Source: a virus
Reading direction: 5' to 3' (one strand)
DNA length: 52,846 nucleotides
IMG/VR virus record: IMGVR_UViG_3300025674_000058
Span: 1 to 52,846 of that record
Positions 1,068 through 50,050 of the stretch are shown here, in pieces (within the stretch, counting starts at the first letter, position 1; the number at the start of each line of letters is the position of its first letter). A model generated the notes under the pieces. It searched no databases and was not told the origin of the DNA. It saw only the letters and a list, made by a program, of their open reading frames with translations. The position numbers were made by a program, and so were the translations under genes.

Positions 1068-1075
1068 CAAACATA
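1068..1075 (-). promoter_or_regulatory. Bacteroidota promoter core TATGTTTG (leftward operon)
   Basis: TATGTTTG matches the Bacteroidota sigma-A -7 consensus TAnnTTTG. It lies in the wider context TTTTGCGTATnTTTGC, which recurs at 2761 and 7650. Only 8 bases separate the core from the ATG at 1059. Confidence 0.75.
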
Positions 1076-1122: not shown

Positions 1123-1130
1123 TATCTTTG
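1123..1130 (+). promoter_or_regulatory. Promoter core TATCTTTG upstream of the recA leader
   Basis: TATCTTTG matches TAnnTTTG, with a TTTG-containing element about 19 bases upstream (TTTTTGTTAA at 1101-1110). Transcription would start near 1136, exactly where the folded segment begins. It is divergent from the promoter at 1068-1075. Confidence 0.7.
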
Positions 1131-1268
1131 CCGCGATGAGTTAAAGTTTCTCATCGGGCGAGTTGACGGCGTGCCCCAACAAAAAGGTACTGCGACGAGG
1201 ATACTTCATCGACGAGCAGAGAAAGTCAACAAGATAAAATGCGGGTTCTCCCGCGCGCGCTTGCGCGT
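1131..1268 (+). ncRNA. Candidate structured noncoding RNA or leader
   Basis: No reading frame of note is present, but complementary segments are dense: GATGAG 1135-1140 with CTCATC 1150-1155; GGGC 1156-1159 with GCCC 1173-1176; GTTGAC 1162-1167 with GTCAAC 1225-1230 (alternatively GTTG 1162-1165 with CAAC 1177-1180); GCGGG 1241-1245 with CCCGC 1250-1254 around a TTCT loop; and GCGC 1255-1258 with GCGC 1263-1266. The GC content is well above that of the flanks. It starts at the expected start site of the promoter at 1123. It could be a stand-alone RNA ending near 1270 or the 5' part of the recA leader. I recognise no known RNA family. Confidence 0.45.
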
Positions 1269-1272
1269 TCTT

Positions 1273-1280
1273 TATCTTTG
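1273..1280 (+). promoter_or_regulatory. Second promoter core TATCTTTG upstream of recA
   Basis: TATCTTTG immediately follows the GC-rich hairpins at 1241-1266. The -33 region is poor, so this promoter may be weak or regulated. It would give a leader of about 110 bases for the recA-like gene. Confidence 0.5.
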
Positions 1281-1297
1281 ACGGCTTTTTTCTGTTT

Positions 1298-1362
1298 ACT
1301 GCTCTAAGTTTCTTATCTCGGAGCAGTTATTACTTAGTACAGTGTTATCGTAGACTAAGTAA
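1298..1362 (+). promoter_or_regulatory. Two hairpins in the recA leader
   Basis: ACTGCTC (1298-1304) pairs with GAGCAGT (1321-1327). TTACTTAG (1330-1337) pairs with CTAAGTAA (1355-1362), extended inward by TAC/GTA. Neither is followed by a T-run, so they are not obvious terminators. They lie just before a GTG start codon and may control recA translation or mRNA stability. Confidence 0.4.
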
Positions 1363-1394
1363 GATTAGATAAAACTTAATACAAAAAAAAATAA

Positions 1395-2270
1395 GTGAAA
1401 TTAGTAAGTTTAGATAGTACAGTAACCGAGAAAGTAGATGTTATTTCTACTGGTAGTTTTTTAGTAGACATGGCTTCGGGTATTGGAGGGTTTCCCCGAG
1501 GAAGGATTGTAGAGTTGTTCGGTTTTGAGTCTACTTCCAAAACAACACTTGCTATTCACACAGTAGCACAAGCAAACAAAAAAAAACTGAGAGCAGCCTA
1601 CATAGATGCTGAACACGCTTTTGACAGAGAGTACGCACAGAATCTTGGTGTGGACTTTAGCTTAACTGACTTTGGGCAACCCGACAACGGGGAGGAAGGA
1701 CTGAACGCTGTTATTGAAGCTTGCGAAAGTGGTAAGTACGGAGTTGTTGTTGTGGACTCTGTTGCTGCACTAACCCCAAAAGCAGAAATAGAAGGTCAAG
1801 TTGGCGATTCGGTTATTGGACTTCACGCAAGACTTATGAGCCAAACTTTGCGCAAACTTGTAGGAGTAGCAAACCGAACAAAAACACTTGTTATTTTTAT
1901 TAATCAGTTTAGGTCAAAGATTGGTGTTAGCTTTGGAGACCCTAGAGTAACAACAGGTGGTAACGCACTTAGGTTTTACGCTTCTATGAGGCTAGAGTTT
2001 AACCGAACAAAAGAAGACGGAAACGACCTCATCAAAATCAAATTCGTAAAAAACAAACTAGCCCCGCCATTCACAAAAACTGAAACAAAAGTTTTCTACG
2101 GCAAAGGAATCTCGCAGAGCTATGAACTCTTGCAACTAGCCTTAGAGCAAGGGATAATCACAAAGGGCGGTAGTTGGTACAAGTACAACGAAGAAAAAGC
2201 ACAAGGAGAAACCGCAGCGCTAAACATTGTGGAGGATAACTTTGAAGAAATTAAAAAACAAGTCTTTTGA
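1395..2270 (+). CDS. recA: RecA-like recombinase with altered Walker A
   Basis: 291 aa with a GTG start preceded by an A-rich stretch rather than a Shine-Dalgarno. RecA landmarks occur in order: the ATP-binding loop GFESTSKTT (residues 43-51), the catalytic-type Glu in DAEHAFD (E73), Walker B VVVVDS (D121), the EIEGQVGDS helix region (131-139), and the L2/ssDNA loop around INQFRSKIGVSFGDP (169-183). The usual loop is GPESSGKTT; here the Gly before Lys is Ser48 and the Pro is Phe44. It is shorter than bacterial RecA (about 350 aa) because the C-terminal domain is reduced. Expected role is strand exchange or repair of phage DNA with the SSB encoded next. ATPase competence is uncertain because of the G-to-S change. 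Confidence 0.9.
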   Translation: MKLVSLDSTVTEKVDVISTGSFLVDMASGIGGFPRGRIVELFGFESTSKTTLAIHTVAQANKKKLRAAYIDAEHAFDREYAQNLGVDFSLTDFGQPDNGEEGLNAVIEACESGKYGVVVVDSVAALTPKAEIEGQVGDSVIGLHARLMSQTLRKLVGVANRTKTLVIFINQFRSKIGVSFGDPRVTTGGNALRFYASMRLEFNRTKEDGNDLIKIKFVKNKLAPPFTKTETKVFYGKGISQSYELLQLALEQGIITKGGSWYKYNEEKAQGETAALNIVEDNFEEIKKQVF

Positions 2271-7218: not shown

Positions 7219-7563
7219 ATGAAAGACAAAGAACAAAACATCAAAAAACAACAAGGCAATGGAGTTTTACCGTGTGTTAGCGGTAGTATTAATGTGCATA
7301 AAAGAACAAGATTGAATCAGCGACAAGTACAGTCAAATTCTTGTTTTTTCAATGTTGACGAAGATATAATTGTAATAGTTGACCGTGAAAAAATAATATT
7401 TAAAAAGCCAACAATAGATTATATGGGCAAAACAATAAAACCAAAAGCCTTGTCAAGTGGGTGGGTTACATTTTCGATTGTAGCAGATTTACCAATTACA
7501 AAAGAATTAGAATTTGACGATGAAGAAAGCACGGAAGATAGATTGGTAGTATATTACCGCTAA
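7219..7563 (+). CDS. Host-like cassette protein
   Basis: 114 aa in markedly AT-richer sequence than its neighbours. The first 40 residues are low in coding character (NGVLPCVSGSINV), as if an intergenic repeat had been read into the frame. The remainder (FNVDEDIIVIVD... KPTIDYMGKT... GWVTFSIVADLP ... EFDDEESTEDRLVVYYR) looks like a small family I associate with Bacteroidota chromosomes. Its stop codon lies inside a repeat (7558-7603) shared with three other places in the window. It is likely an acquired gene cassette. Function unknown. Confidence 0.7.
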   Translation: MKDKEQNIKKQQGNGVLPCVSGSINVHKRTRLNQRQVQSNSCFFNVDEDIIVIVDREKIIFKKPTIDYMGKTIKPKALSSGWVTFSIVADLPITKELEFDDEESTEDRLVVYYR

Positions 7564-7603
7564 TGTCGGCTATGTGAACCAAAAGTATAGAATAACGGAG
7601 GTA
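7558..7603 (+). repeat. Dispersed 3'-end repeat, copy A
   Basis: The core is CGGCTATGTGAACC followed by AAAAGTATAGAATAACGG and AGGTA (7567-7603). It matches copy B at 16303-16339 at 36 of 37 positions, copy C (46416-46461, other strand) at about 33 of 37, and copy D (49093-49140, other strand) more loosely. The stop codon of the cassette gene lies in its CGCTAA prefix, as in copy C. Confidence 0.85.
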
Positions 7604-16147: not shown

Positions 16148-16374
16148 CATTAAAGGTAAACTATTGGTTTGTGAATAAGGATTTGTTTGTAAGGGGCTAT
16201 CGTATTTTAAGGCACGCAGCGCAGTTTGTGTTTACATTTGATGTAAGACACCGATACGAGATAGACCATTACCGATACACGAAACGGTTTTCTAACGTAT
16301 CACGGCTATGTGAACTAAAAGTATAGAATAACGGAGGTATCATACCTAGAACATCACTATTGGGTTTTTATTCG
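16148..16374 (+). other. Noncoding remnant of a cassette-like element
   Basis: No convincing reading frame. Contains ACCGATAC twice (near 16249 and 16271), GATACG pairing with CGTATC at a distance, and ends in repeat copy B. It looks like a cassette end whose gene has been lost, or a noncoding transcript driven by the box at 16140. Confidence 0.4.
16291..16339 (+). repeat. Dispersed 3'-end repeat, copy B
   Basis: The core at 16303-16339 is identical to copy A (7567-7603) at 36 of 37 bases. It is preceded by TCTAACG, the same TAACG prefix as the other copies, but here no gene ends in it. Confidence 0.85.
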
Positions 16375-46415: not shown

Positions 46416-46461
46416 CACCTCTGTTATTGTCTACTTTTGGTTCACATAGCCGACGTTAGCG
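46416..46461 (-). repeat. Dispersed 3'-end repeat, copy C
   Basis: On the minus strand: CGCTAACGTCGGCTATGTG then AACCAAAAGTAGACAATAAC and AGAGGTG. It contains the stop codon of the gene at 46456, as copy A does for its gene. Confidence 0.85.
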
Positions 46462-46799: not shown

Positions 46800-46969
46800 T
46801 ACAATATTTAAGTTAATAATTCCGCAACTACGGTTATACGTGGCACGTTGTACACAATATGGCTTAGTTCCGTTCTCGTATCAAAGTTGGTGCTAATCAT
46901 ACCGTATTTATTTTCCCTTTCCCTCGCTTTTTTAGTTACTATATTTTGCCACTAATTAGCGTTTAGTGG
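46800..46969 (-). repeat. attC-like intergenic site (site 0)
   Basis: Read in gene direction it starts after a stop with hairpin CCACTAA/TTAGTGG. Near its end, TACGGTAT pairs with ATAACCGTA across about 75 bases, and GTATAACCG sits near the end. Same general build as the other intergenic sites, but more divergent. Confidence 0.4.
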
Positions 46970-47218
46970 CTATTTATAGGATTTCTCATTTTTGCCTAAT
47001 GGGTTAATAAAAGTATAATAATATTCTTCGGCAGGCTCATAATAATATTTTCTTGGCATAGGGTTTAAATAATCTTTCGTCATAGCTCTAATATAACAAC
47101 TTATAAACTGTTGTTTCTCTTTCTCAATAAGTTCATTATACTTAGCTAATAAATCATTTCCTATGAAATATTGGTTTTGCTCCATATATTCCATTAATTC
47201 TTGTAGTGGTGTTTTCAT
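46970..47218 (-). CDS. Small hypothetical protein
   Basis: 82 aa, MKTPLQELMEYMEQN start, then LLAKYNELIEKEKQQFISCY and a Tyr-rich C-terminus (RKYYYEPAEEYYYTF). I know this arrangement from Bacteroidota phage and chromosomal proteins. Coupled by ATGA to the upstream gene at 47215. Function unknown. Confidence 0.7.
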   Translation of the reverse strand: MKTPLQELMEYMEQNQYFIGNDLLAKYNELIEKEKQQFISCYIRAMTKDYLNPMPRKYYYEPAEEYYYTFINPLGKNEKSYK

Positions 47219-47451
47219 AATTTTTCTATTTCTTTTTGTACTTCATTCCAAAATTCTTTTTGATAATCTGTTAAGTTTATTACAAAACTTGTAAGTATTT
47301 CTATTACCATTTCATTGCAAGCTTTTTTTGCATTATCATAAATCAATGTGTTTTGCCACACAATAGCGTTCCATTCCGAATCTCCAAATTTACCTCCAAG
47401 TTTTATAAACATCCTGTTTACAATCGCTTCTGCTTTTTCTTTTGGTGTCAT
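47215..47451 (-). CDS. Small hypothetical protein
   Basis: 78 aa, starting MTPKEKAEAIVNRMFIKLGG and ending WNEVQKEIEKL, a pattern shared with small proteins often paired with the MKTPLQEL type. Helical. The two genes form one coupled cassette. Confidence 0.7.
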   Translation of the reverse strand: MTPKEKAEAIVNRMFIKLGGKFGDSEWNAIVWQNTLIYDNAKKACNEMVIEILTSFVINLTDYQKEFWNEVQKEIEKL

Positions 47452-47548
47452 AGTTTTGATACTCTTTTAATTTTTCAAATTAATATTTGCCACCGCACAA
47501 AAAATAAATACTAAGTTTTGTGCTTCGGTCATAATTTCGTTTTTAAAA

Positions 47549-47695
47549 TCCGCCACATCATATAACAACGTCTATAAATAATGCTAAAAGTGCAGGATAA
47601 TTCACTATTCATATCAATTAAGTCAGTTTCATCCTTACTTTTATGATACGGTGCATCATATCGCACTATTCATATACCTAGCCGTTAGCCACCAT
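47549..47695 (-). repeat. attC-like intergenic site 1
   Basis: Read in gene direction from the stop at 47696: GGCTAACGGCTAGGTATATG at the start, CGTTGTTATATGATG at the end, and pairing between TATGAATAGTGC and GCATTATTTATA (with wobble pairs). ATATGAATAGTG also recurs as a direct repeat inside. About 140 bases in all. Confidence 0.55.
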
Positions 47696-47917
47696 TTAAG
47701 GCGCTATTCCTTTAGTGTGTAGTTCCATATACAGTTTGCAATCTTGCAAAAAACCAGTGAATAAAAGTATTTCATCTTTTATTTCGTAAACGGTTTCAGT
47801 GCAGTTGCCCTCTGTCTTAATACTAATTGGTTTTGATTCCTTTACGTATAAATGAAATACTGTTTTATAGTTAAAAATTTCGTTTGTTTCTTGCAGCCTA
47901 TAAGTGAATCTTTCCAT
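47696..47917 (-). CDS. Cassette-type hypothetical protein
   Basis: 73 aa, beta-rich (RFTYRLQETNEIFNYKTVFH, ISIKTEGNCTETVYEI) with two Cys. AT-rich. Followed directly by attC-like site 1. No family recognised. Confidence 0.6.
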   Translation of the reverse strand: MERFTYRLQETNEIFNYKTVFHLYVKESKPISIKTEGNCTETVYEIKDEILLFTGFLQDCKLYMELHTKGIAP

Positions 47918-47921
47918 AATT

Positions 47922-48062
47922 CTAAAGTTTTAGTTTTATTGCGTTGTACTTTCTTTTAAGTCGGTTAAATTCTTCCATGTTTTCGGCGGCTTCGATGAGG
48001 TGCAGTAAACCGATAAGTTGCGCCAATGTATCGAAGCTACCTTCTATCCAATCCTTGTTCAT
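47922..48062 (-). CDS. Small helical protein
   Basis: 46 aa (MNKDWIEGSF...AIKLKL). Its ATG overlaps the upstream stop (ATGA). Base composition is like the phage genes, not the cassette genes. Function unknown. Confidence 0.6.
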   Translation of the reverse strand: MNKDWIEGSFDTLAQLIGLLHLIEAAENMEEFNRLKRKYNAIKLKL

Positions 48063-48262
48063 CTTATGTTTATTGCGTTGCCGTCTATGAGAAGCTTTCC
48101 TCTTTCTTTGATGAGTCTAAGCACCCAAGTTGGTTCATATTGTTCAATGAGAGTGCCACGAATTTTGTTTTTCCGCGCAAAGTCAAATATCTTTTGCTTG
48201 TCGTAAGCGCAAACAATAAGTCTATTGTCGTGAATCAGTTGAAATGTTCTGTGTTTTTCCAT
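48059..48262 (-). CDS. Small basic protein
   Basis: 67 aa (MEKHRTFQLIHDNRL...). Alpha/beta with FDFARKNKIRGTLIEQYEPT in the middle. ATGA coupled to the next gene. Phage-like composition. Function unknown. Confidence 0.65.
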   Translation of the reverse strand: MEKHRTFQLIHDNRLIVCAYDKQKIFDFARKNKIRGTLIEQYEPTWVLRLIKERGKLLIDGNAINIR

Positions 48263-48264
48263 GA

Positions 48265-48468
48265 TTATCTTTGCGCAGCTTCGCGCCCTTTTTTAAATCC
48301 AAAATTGTAACCGCACCGATAAGACCTACAATCTAAAGGTGATAGCGGACAAGGTGGGGTAAGAGGGCAAAGTGCTGTTTGTCCTTTCACATCTCGCCAT
48401 CCCTCGCAGTAACCGTCGTTAAACCCATCGCAATAAGTGAGGGTAAGTAATAGTATTAGTGTTTTCAT
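48265..48468 (-). CDS. Small secreted Cys-rich protein
   Basis: 67 aa. N-terminal signal-like segment (MKTLILLLTLTYC), then a DGFNDGYCEGW motif, a Pro/Cys-rich part (LCPLTPPCPLSPLDC) and YRCGYNFGFKKG. I associate the GF-x2-GY ... PP-CP ... GYN-x-GF pattern with small Bacteroidota phage proteins. Six Cys suggest an exported, disulfide-stabilised product. Confidence 0.65.
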   Translation of the reverse strand: MKTLILLLTLTYCDGFNDGYCEGWRDVKGQTALCPLTPPCPLSPLDCRSYRCGYNFGFKKGREAAQR

Positions 48469-48472
48469 ACCC

Positions 48473-48658
48473 CTACAAAAGTAAACAATTTATTTTGTAC
48501 TCGTCGAAAAGATTTTGTAATTCTCTTTCGGTTAGTAGTTCTCCGCCCACGATTTTGTAGCTAACTTTATCTAAGTTGTCAAATATCATAAGCTTTTCGG
48601 GTAGGTTGCGCAGTTTCGCGGCGACTACCGTTTTCCCATCTGTTGCTATTACTTGCAT
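48473..48658 (-). CDS. Small hypothetical protein
   Basis: 61 aa (MQVIATDGKTVVAAKLRNLP...), alpha/beta. Overlaps the upstream gene by 10 bases. Unrecognised. Confidence 0.6.
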   Translation of the reverse strand: MQVIATDGKTVVAAKLRNLPEKLMIFDNLDKVSYKIVGGELLTERELQNLFDEYKINCLLL

Positions 48659-48873
48659 ATTACTTCTCCTTTGTTGTTTATAACTATGTAATGCCCCGAA
48701 ATGGGGTGAACCGAAGTTTCAATATCTACTTCTTTTGGAAAACCTAAGTGCCAACCCTCCTCAATAAAAGAGCGTGGTACTTTAGGGTATCTGTTGTCAA
48801 AATTTGTGGCGATTGTTTCGTCGCCCCTAACAAGGCTTATTCGCCCGTCTTGTACTTCTACTGTTGTTGTCAT
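48649..48873 (-). CDS. Small hypothetical protein
   Basis: 74 aa from the ATG at 48873 (MTTTVEVQDG). The leader TTGCGCACAAAAACAA before this start also precedes the start at 49067, so an upstream in-frame TTG inside it is rejected. Thr-rich start, GWHLGFPKEVDIETSVHP middle, VINNKGEVICK end. Overlaps the upstream stop as ATGA. Confidence 0.65.
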   Translation of the reverse strand: MTTTVEVQDGRISLVRGDETIATNFDNRYPKVPRSFIEEGWHLGFPKEVDIETSVHPISGHYIVINNKGEVICK

Positions 48874-49067
48874 CGTTGTTGTTTTTGTGCGCAATTAACA
48901 AACCCTTGCTTTAATAGCTCATTTATAAAAGCATTTAGTTTTATCCTATTCTTGAAGCAAGCAATATCAAAGAAGTCGCTCCCATCCTTGTGTTTCTTTT
49001 CTCCGTCATAGTAAGAAACTAAATACTTTACCTTTCCCACGCTGTGTTTTAAATTAAATCTCTTCAT
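48870..49067 (-). CDS. Small conserved phage protein
   Basis: 65 aa. KVKYLVSYYDGEKKHKDGS followed by FFDIACFKNRIKLNAFI is a pattern I know from Bacteroidota phage genomes. Basic, single domain. Leader TTGCGCACAAAAACAA shared with the gene at 48873. Coupled by ATGA. Confidence 0.7.
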   Translation of the reverse strand: MKRFNLKHSVGKVKYLVSYYDGEKKHKDGSDFFDIACFKNRIKLNAFINELLKQGFVNCAQKQQR

Positions 49068-49092
49068 TTCATTTTTGTTTTTGTGCGCAAAC

Positions 49093-49140
49093 GCGCTGTT
49101 ATTGGCTGCTTTTAGTTAACATAGCTGCCGTTAGCAAACA
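49093..49140 (-). repeat. Dispersed 3'-end repeat, copy D
   Basis: On the minus strand: GCTAACGGCAGCTATGTTAA then CTAAAAGCAGCCAATAACAG. It follows the stop of the gene at 49141 by 6 bases. A divergent member of the A-C family. Confidence 0.7.
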
Positions 49141-49317
49141 TTATAGTTGCTTAACGTCATATACCATTCCATCCAATCCGTAATCACAAGTCCATCCTTT
49201 TTGCTCTAATTCTTTTTGTATTCTATTGCACTCTGCATATAAATCTTTGTTATCATCCCAACTATCCACTATGTTTTTTACGTCTTGTGGTAAGTTTTCA
49301 TATTCTTCTGCTGTCAT
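49141..49317 (-). CDS. Paralogue 1 of a 60-aa family (cassette-borne)
   Basis: 58 aa from the ATG at 49317 (MTAEEYENLP); the upstream in-frame TTG lies in the attC-like end. Shares EYxxLPxxIxxIxDS, KxxYxECxRI and TCxYGLDGxxYxV with the genes at 50401 and 50616. Acidic, helical, one Cys pair. Flanked by an attC-like site upstream and repeat copy D downstream. Confidence 0.7.
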   Translation of the reverse strand: MTAEEYENLPQDVKNIVDSWDDNKDLYAECNRIQKELEQKGWTCDYGLDGMVYDVKQL

Positions 49318-49330
49318 AATTAAACGATTT

Positions 49331-49424
49331 GCTAACAAGGTATATAAGCCATACCCTATTAAGGTTATTGTTTAATTTTAAAGTTTGTGATTAGGTACGG
49401 CTTATATACCCAACCGTTATGGGC
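49331..49424 (-). repeat. attC-like intergenic site 2 (17-bp inverted repeat)
   Basis: GGTATATAAGCCATACC (49339-49355) pairs with GGTACGGCTTATATACC (49394-49410) at 16 of 17 positions around a 38-base loop. In gene direction the site runs from CCCATAACGG to TTGTTAGC. The best-formed of the set and very similar in layout to an attC hairpin. Confidence 0.65.
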
Positions 49425-49456
49425 AAGTGTGCCGAAGCACACCCACCCGATAACAA

Positions 49457-49696
49457 TTACTTCTTTTTGGGTCTTTTTTCGGGTACTTTCTCAACAGGGT
49501 AGTAAATACCGCTTCTCTCATCTTTTTCCCATTTCCAATCAGAAGGTTTTGAAACTCCACTTGCATCGTGTTGTTTCTTTTTAGCAAAATTCCATGTTCT
49601 TAACATAAAAATTAGTATTAAACACCAGCCCATAACATCAAATATAAAACAGCAGGGATGTGGTGCTGAATCATACTGTGTACTACTATTCATCAT
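49457..49696 (-). CDS. Small membrane protein (cassette-borne)
   Basis: 79 aa from the ATG at 49696; the longer frame runs into the attC-like end. A hydrophobic segment (PCCFIFDVMGWCLILIFML) near residues 14-32 and a basic C-terminus (EKVPEKRPKKK) suggest a single-pass protein. AT-rich. Unrecognised. Confidence 0.6.
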   Translation of the reverse strand: MMNSSTQYDSAPHPCCFIFDVMGWCLILIFMLRTWNFAKKKQHDASGVSKPSDWKWEKDERSGIYYPVEKVPEKRPKKK

Positions 49697-49766
49697 TTGT
49701 GGTCGGCTAATAGGGTTTCGCACTTAATCCCTGCCGATTTTATATTTGTAGCCGTTATATGCAATT
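49697..49766 (-). repeat. attC-like intergenic site 3
   Basis: CGGCTA (49704-49709) pairs with TAGCCG (49749-49754), and AGGG (49712-49715) with CCCT (49729-49732). In gene direction it starts with ATATAACGGCTA, overlapping the stop of the upstream gene, and ends CTATTAGCCG. Short (about 60 bases), with a second alternative pairing CGGC/GCCG. Confidence 0.5.
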
Positions 49767-49952
49767 ATCTTTAACTACATCAAGAATAACCCAATCGTGA
49801 ACACCCTCTTTTTTAAACTCTTCCAACTCTCTTTCAGAGTCTAAGTAAAAGAAAATGTCATCATCATCTTCTTCTATATCTCCAATTTTTAGAATCATAT
49901 CGTCTTGTATGTTTCCGTTATCTAACCATTTTATTGTTGCTATAAATCTCAT
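49755..49952 (-). CDS. Small acidic protein (cassette-borne)
   Basis: 65 aa. A run of acidic residues (IGDIEEDDDDIFFYLDSERE) in the middle. Flanked by attC-like sites on both sides. Unrecognised. Confidence 0.6.
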   Translation of the reverse strand: MRFIATIKWLDNGNIQDDMILKIGDIEEDDDDIFFYLDSERELEEFKKEGVHDWVILDVVKDNCI

Positions 49953-49982
49953 TTTAACTAATTTTTAATCTATTAATAAAAA

Positions 49983-50050
49983 GCATATAACAATAGCTAT
50001 ATGCAAAACTCCGTTGCACTACGTTCAGCACATATCCCAACCGTTCGTTA
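49983..50050 (-). repeat. attC-like intergenic site 4
   Basis: GCATATA pairs with TATATGC near one end. In gene direction it starts TTTAACGAACGGTTGGGATA and ends TTGTTATATGC. Includes the ACGGTTGGG segment seen in site 2. Confidence 0.5.

Follow-up and report, generated by a model that had tools for sequence, protein, structure and literature searches.

A strongly folded, non-coding candidate 5' leader upstream of recA in a probable Bacteroidota phage

Structured 5' cis-regulatory leaders are known from the Flavobacteriaceae, where some are attenuators; 64 are listed in Flavobacterium psychrophilum, in which the median 5' UTR is 24 nt (PMC9723704). The segment described here, upstream of recA in an uncultured virus, shares with these leaders and attenuators the promoter type, the position of a long, folded 5' leader in front of a gene and a possible internal terminator. 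It differs in being carried by a phage, in preceding recA, in having neither a leader peptide coding signal nor a sequence relative, and in being a prediction from sequence. Bacteroides intergenic small RNAs such as GibS (PMC7366714) are similar in their promoter box, length of about 150 nt, folding and possible intrinsic terminator. Unlike GibS, the phage segment immediately precedes recA and shares its strand, has a non-canonical terminator and is known from sequence alone. A third resemblance is to transcript-primed (R-loop) phage origins such as those of T4 (PMC3016281), in that the phage locus combines a promoter and an AT-rich stretch near recombination genes and lies at a skew minimum. 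Set against the T4 origins, replication initiation at the phage locus is putative, and the skew is confounded with gene strand.

The window, that is, the whole stretch of DNA analysed (52,846 nucleotides), is the 52.8-kb record IMGVR_UViG_3300025674_000058 of an uncultured virus, most likely a tailed phage with a Bacteroidota host. Its terminase is about 28% identical to Flavobacterium elemo phage terminases and is also related to those of Cellulophaga phages, and Bacteroidota-type TAnnTTTG boxes are present at its gene starts. The minus strand carries the genes to the left of ~1.1 kb and the main ones to the right of ~42.3 kb; nearly all genes between these positions are on the plus strand. 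The folded segment sits where the gene arms chiefly diverge, with a leftward promoter (box 1068-1075) on one side and recA on the other. A near-identical contig continues ~5.6 kb further left than window position 1, so the record lacks sequence at that end; the extension, which is not in the window, carries mostly leftward genes. By eye, one product encoded in the extension is GroEL-like.

The recA gene (1395..2270, plus strand; 291 aa; PF00154, 7e-89) has a GTG start with a TAA in frame immediately 5' of it, and is preceded by an A-rich stretch of 12.5% GC (1363..1394, plus strand). The match of its product to E. coli RecA begins at query residue 12 and E. coli residue 36, so approximately the first 24 residues of the N-terminal part are missing from the phage protein. 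Most RecA relatives in other phages begin about 25-45 residues further upstream.

To place promoters, a matrix was built from 15 gene-proximal boxes of the record, and all 95 scorable TAnnTTTG occurrences were scored by leave-one-out. The -7 box of promoter P1, TATCTTTG (1123..1130, plus strand), ranks 4 of 95 although it is outside the training set, bearing out the promoter core that the first-pass annotation had placed just before the folded part. If the box is taken to span -12 to -5 relative to the transcription start (PMC9723704), the implied start is 1135, the first base of GATGAG at the foot of the 5' hairpin (h1). The distance from P1 to recA, and thus the implied leader, is 260 nt, compared with 4-21 nt for most other well-scored promoters of the phage. 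A second core, proposed to lie after the folded part, did not hold up: TATCTTTG recurs at 1273..1280 (plus strand), but ranks 92 of 95, and the box forms part of the 3' arm of the long stem described below. A divergent, leftward promoter does exist, though on the other side, with the -7 box TATGTTTG at 1068..1075 on the minus strand (rank 7 of 95 by leave-one-out), an implied start at ~1063 and an ATG at 1059.

The leader from 1134 to 1400 folds at -78.4 kcal/mol (z -3.3, with none of 200 shuffles as strong). Because the windows for individual parts were picked after the sequence had been seen, all 160-nt windows of both strands were also ranked record-wide by regression on composition. In this composition-corrected ranking of ~1,320 windows, 1201-1360 on the plus strand is first for over-folding. 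The GC content of 1134-1290 is 50.3%, a value reached by 1.6% of same-size windows in the record, against 24% before and 28% after the segment. The strong folding and the GC content well above the flanks, both claimed in the first-pass annotation, are thus confirmed, as are its individual hairpins, including two in front of the recA GTG that turn out to be 8 and 9 bp long.

The hairpin h1 (CGATGAG/CTCATCG, 1134-1140/1150-1156, plus strand), placed where the predicted transcript would begin, has 7 bp, a 9-nt loop, z -3.4 and a pair probability of 0.92. It is followed by a weakly determined middle part (1156..1218, plus strand) that consists of a GGGCG/TGCCC stem (1156-1160/1172-1176, pair probability 0.85) and then the A-rich CAACAAAAAGG; folding of 1154-1218 is no stronger than that of shuffles (z +0.4). 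The large hairpin (1214..1297, plus strand) is a long stem with two GC-rich hairpin caps, forming a three-way junction, and when tested as 1216-1300 it has z -4.3, a strength reached by 0 of 200 shuffles. Within it, the stem AAGATAAA/TTTATCTT (1231-1238/1271-1278) encloses both GC-rich hairpins (1240-1255 and 1253-1268), and GGC-TTTTTT lies in its 3' side (1283-1291, plus strand). The two hairpins nearest recA are hc (1298-1305/1320-1327, plus strand; 8 bp, 14-nt loop) and hd (1330-1338/1354-1362, plus strand; 9 bp, 15-nt loop), which jointly have z -3.1 against shuffles. In the full-leader ensemble, pair probabilities range from 0.90 to 0.999 for the long stem, hc and hd, and at equilibrium the main hairpins prevail.

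Other structured or repeated parts of the record were seen at a distance from this locus. The second most over-folded window is at 49601 (plus strand). A region of ~3 kb with few long frames (46800-50050) contains several palindromes bounded by GTTA/TAAC (for example, arms 49339-49355 and 49394-49410, 94% complementary), which by eye only resemble integron attC sites between small cassettes. A repeat of 36-45 nt (GGCTATGTGAACCAAAAGTATAGAATAACGGAGG and its complement) is found in four places on both strands with 85-97% identity (7558-7603, 16303-16339, 46417-46461 and 49096-49135).

The claim that the segment has no reading frame stands in the sense of no coding signature, though a stop-free frame spans 1111 to 1280. 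Scored for codon usage from 1135, that frame reaches 0.00, well short of the 0.34 +/- 0.13 of coding segments and within the spread of off-frame values (-0.08 +/- 0.16). Three short frames (at 1164, 1171 and 1239) have codon scores clearly below those of phage coding segments and overlapping or below the off-frame values, and a frame at 1136 has two codons only. Searches of the leader frames against Pfam and PHROG gave no match. A leader-peptide attenuator was therefore rejected, the short frames being without coding signal and without Pfam match.

In RNA, the long stem is followed by GGC-UUUUUU-CUG. When 1225-1285 is folded alone, the stem closes by GUC/GAC pairs and GGC is left between stem and U-run; when the upstream A-tract AGAGAAAG is included in the fold, the U-run becomes paired. 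The clear terminators of the phage (16112, 41837 and 45244) are compact short-stem hairpins with T6-T9 directly after the stem. Due to the GGC spacer or the paired U-run, which set it apart from these, the large hairpin is called terminator-like and atypical rather than a terminator. An automatic terminator scan flags only the inner GCGC hairpin of the long stem.

An alternative partner exists for each of the main hairpins; CTGCTC (1299), for instance, can pair with GAGCAG at 1214 or at 1321. GUUGAC at 1162 is complementary to GUCAAC at 1225, making it a candidate antiterminator with a pairing probability of approximately 0 at equilibrium. Mutually exclusive pairings are only marginally in excess: their count is reached by 4.5% of shuffled sequences and by 5.2% of windows across the genome. 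This count merges overlapping words; the unmerged count gave P 0.002 and is not relied on. An attenuator, raised earlier as one explanation, is still a candidate on account of the U6 after the hairpin and the alternative partners, with P1 (rank 4 of 95) supplying a promoter upstream of the leader, but the exclusive pairings exceed chance only marginally. It is plausible that the segment is an attenuator or gives an RNA of ~155 nt, from the large hairpin that ends in GGC-U6.

Searches for relatives found the region in one other place, the contig IMGVR_UViG_3300010297_000080, which is the same virus and near-identical: the leader is identical, and the 7 differences in 8,267 bases all fall between 127 and 492. 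Two IUPAC patterns run against IMG/VR found nothing beyond this contig. No match reached the gathering score in Rfam release 15, relaxed thresholds giving only chance matches far below threshold, and DNA similarity searches of phages and plasmids gave only chance matches of ~20-30 nt. Among about 90 loci of RecA relatives (~32-56% identity), no alignable leader was seen, and recA is mostly close behind another gene with a short gap. Of the strongly folded regions upstream of recA, the few inspected (L005 and L008) were set aside as terminators of the preceding gene. No RecA match is encoded in 39 records of terminase relatives searched whole. With a covariance model built from this one sequence, nothing convincing emerged from six genomes reached through loci or from three partly overlapping draws of ~395 Bacteroidota genomes each; the matches obtained in the first draw (~22 bits, 90 nt) all fall where the coding regions of two adjacent genes, a toxin-antitoxin-like pair, overlap, and were rejected as chance resemblance. 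In the Bacteroidota genomes L120-L124, that overlap has GGTGACGCCGTGCCCCAAATAAAATGG, ~26 nt of which are similar to GTTGACGGCGTGCCCCAACAAAAAGG of the leader, and this was judged to be chance. The leader thus appears to be without a known relative, yet of a known kind, given the structured leaders and ~150-nt small RNAs that have this type of promoter in Bacteroidota.

We tentatively favour a cis-acting structured 5' leader of recA, in which the large hairpin would partly stop transcription and release an RNA of ~155 nt. P1 would start a transcript at ~1135 that opens with a hairpin and continues into recA as a strongly folded, non-coding 5' leader of ~260 nt, restraining recA expression in cis or setting its timing. 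At the large hairpin with GGC-U6, part of the polymerases would stop, giving the ~155-nt RNA, and read-through would yield recA mRNA, in which hc, hd and the A-rich stretch precede the GTG. Counting for a cis-acting leader are computed features, namely the similarity of P1 to the other promoters of the phage, the start position, the excess folding, the non-coding character and the outlying leader length, together with the U6 and the leaders known in the phylum. Termination, its regulation and any signal involved are inferred. Counting against an attenuating leader are the hairpin unlike the phage's own terminators, the marginal exclusive pairings, a non-significant pseudoknot and the lack of homologues. 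The earlier suggestion of a recA leader and/or small RNA from a promoter near ~1136 is supported by the promoter score, the start at 1135 and the folding statistics; the part of it in which a small RNA is separate from a recA leader with its own start lost its support with the second promoter (rank 92 of 95).

It is rather unlikely that the segment from 1135 to ~1290 is an independent small RNA of ~155 nt acting in trans on phage or host mRNAs; transcription of recA would then depend on read-through or on a promoter that escaped recognition. The promoter directly at the 5' end, the terminator-like 3' end, the high GC amid AT-rich surroundings and a size resembling Bacteroides GibS (~145 nt, PMC7366714) would all fit such an RNA. 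However, the terminator is not canonical, no relative was found in other phages or in the draws of ~1,200 Bacteroidota genomes (partly overlapping), and antisense pairing of the leader with the phage's own gene starts is not significant, the best energies being reached by 10-37% of shuffles.

The hairpins could instead form a passive 5' UTR that stabilises recA mRNA or provides an RNase III-type processing site, with no switch, which is unlikely. In agreement with this, the hairpins are stable, local and separate rather than one integrated fold, and the middle part is unremarkable (z +0.4). A pseudoknot joining the hc loop to the sequence just in front of recA was rejected, since the two are complementary but ~20% of shuffles match them, and this too is compatible with a passive UTR. 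The U-run after the long stem and the unusual leader length would be left unexplained.

An element of a replication origin, working at the DNA level or primed by a P1 transcript that crosses the AT-rich stretch where the genome arms diverge, is quite improbable. The cumulative GC skew has a suggestive minimum at ~1132 and a maximum at ~41.5 kb, the gene arms diverge mainly at this locus, beside recA and an ssb-like gene and with stretches of 24% and 12.5% GC, and transcript-primed phage origins occur in T4 (PMC3016281). The skew follows gene strand, though, and is therefore confounded, and sequence is missing from the left end of the record. It is very improbable that the leader, as an RNA with no known relatives, has two roles, controlling recA in cis and also acting, as a ~155-nt product or primer transcript, at the divergence point and possible replication origin; if true, such a dual-role phage RNA would couple recombination to the start of replication.

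That the folding is due to chance or is a decaying remnant without function is scarcely credible, since the segment holds the top window of the record, several parts are matched by 0 of 200 shuffles and the structure begins exactly at an independently predicted promoter, even though nothing searched contains a homologue and the identical copy in the second contig is uninformative.

As it stands, the leader is an orphan candidate. There are few good descriptions of regulatory RNAs from Bacteroidota phages, and a long structured leader on a phage recA, as tentatively proposed here, would be a place to study the timing of recombination in hosts without Shine-Dalgarno-based initiation.
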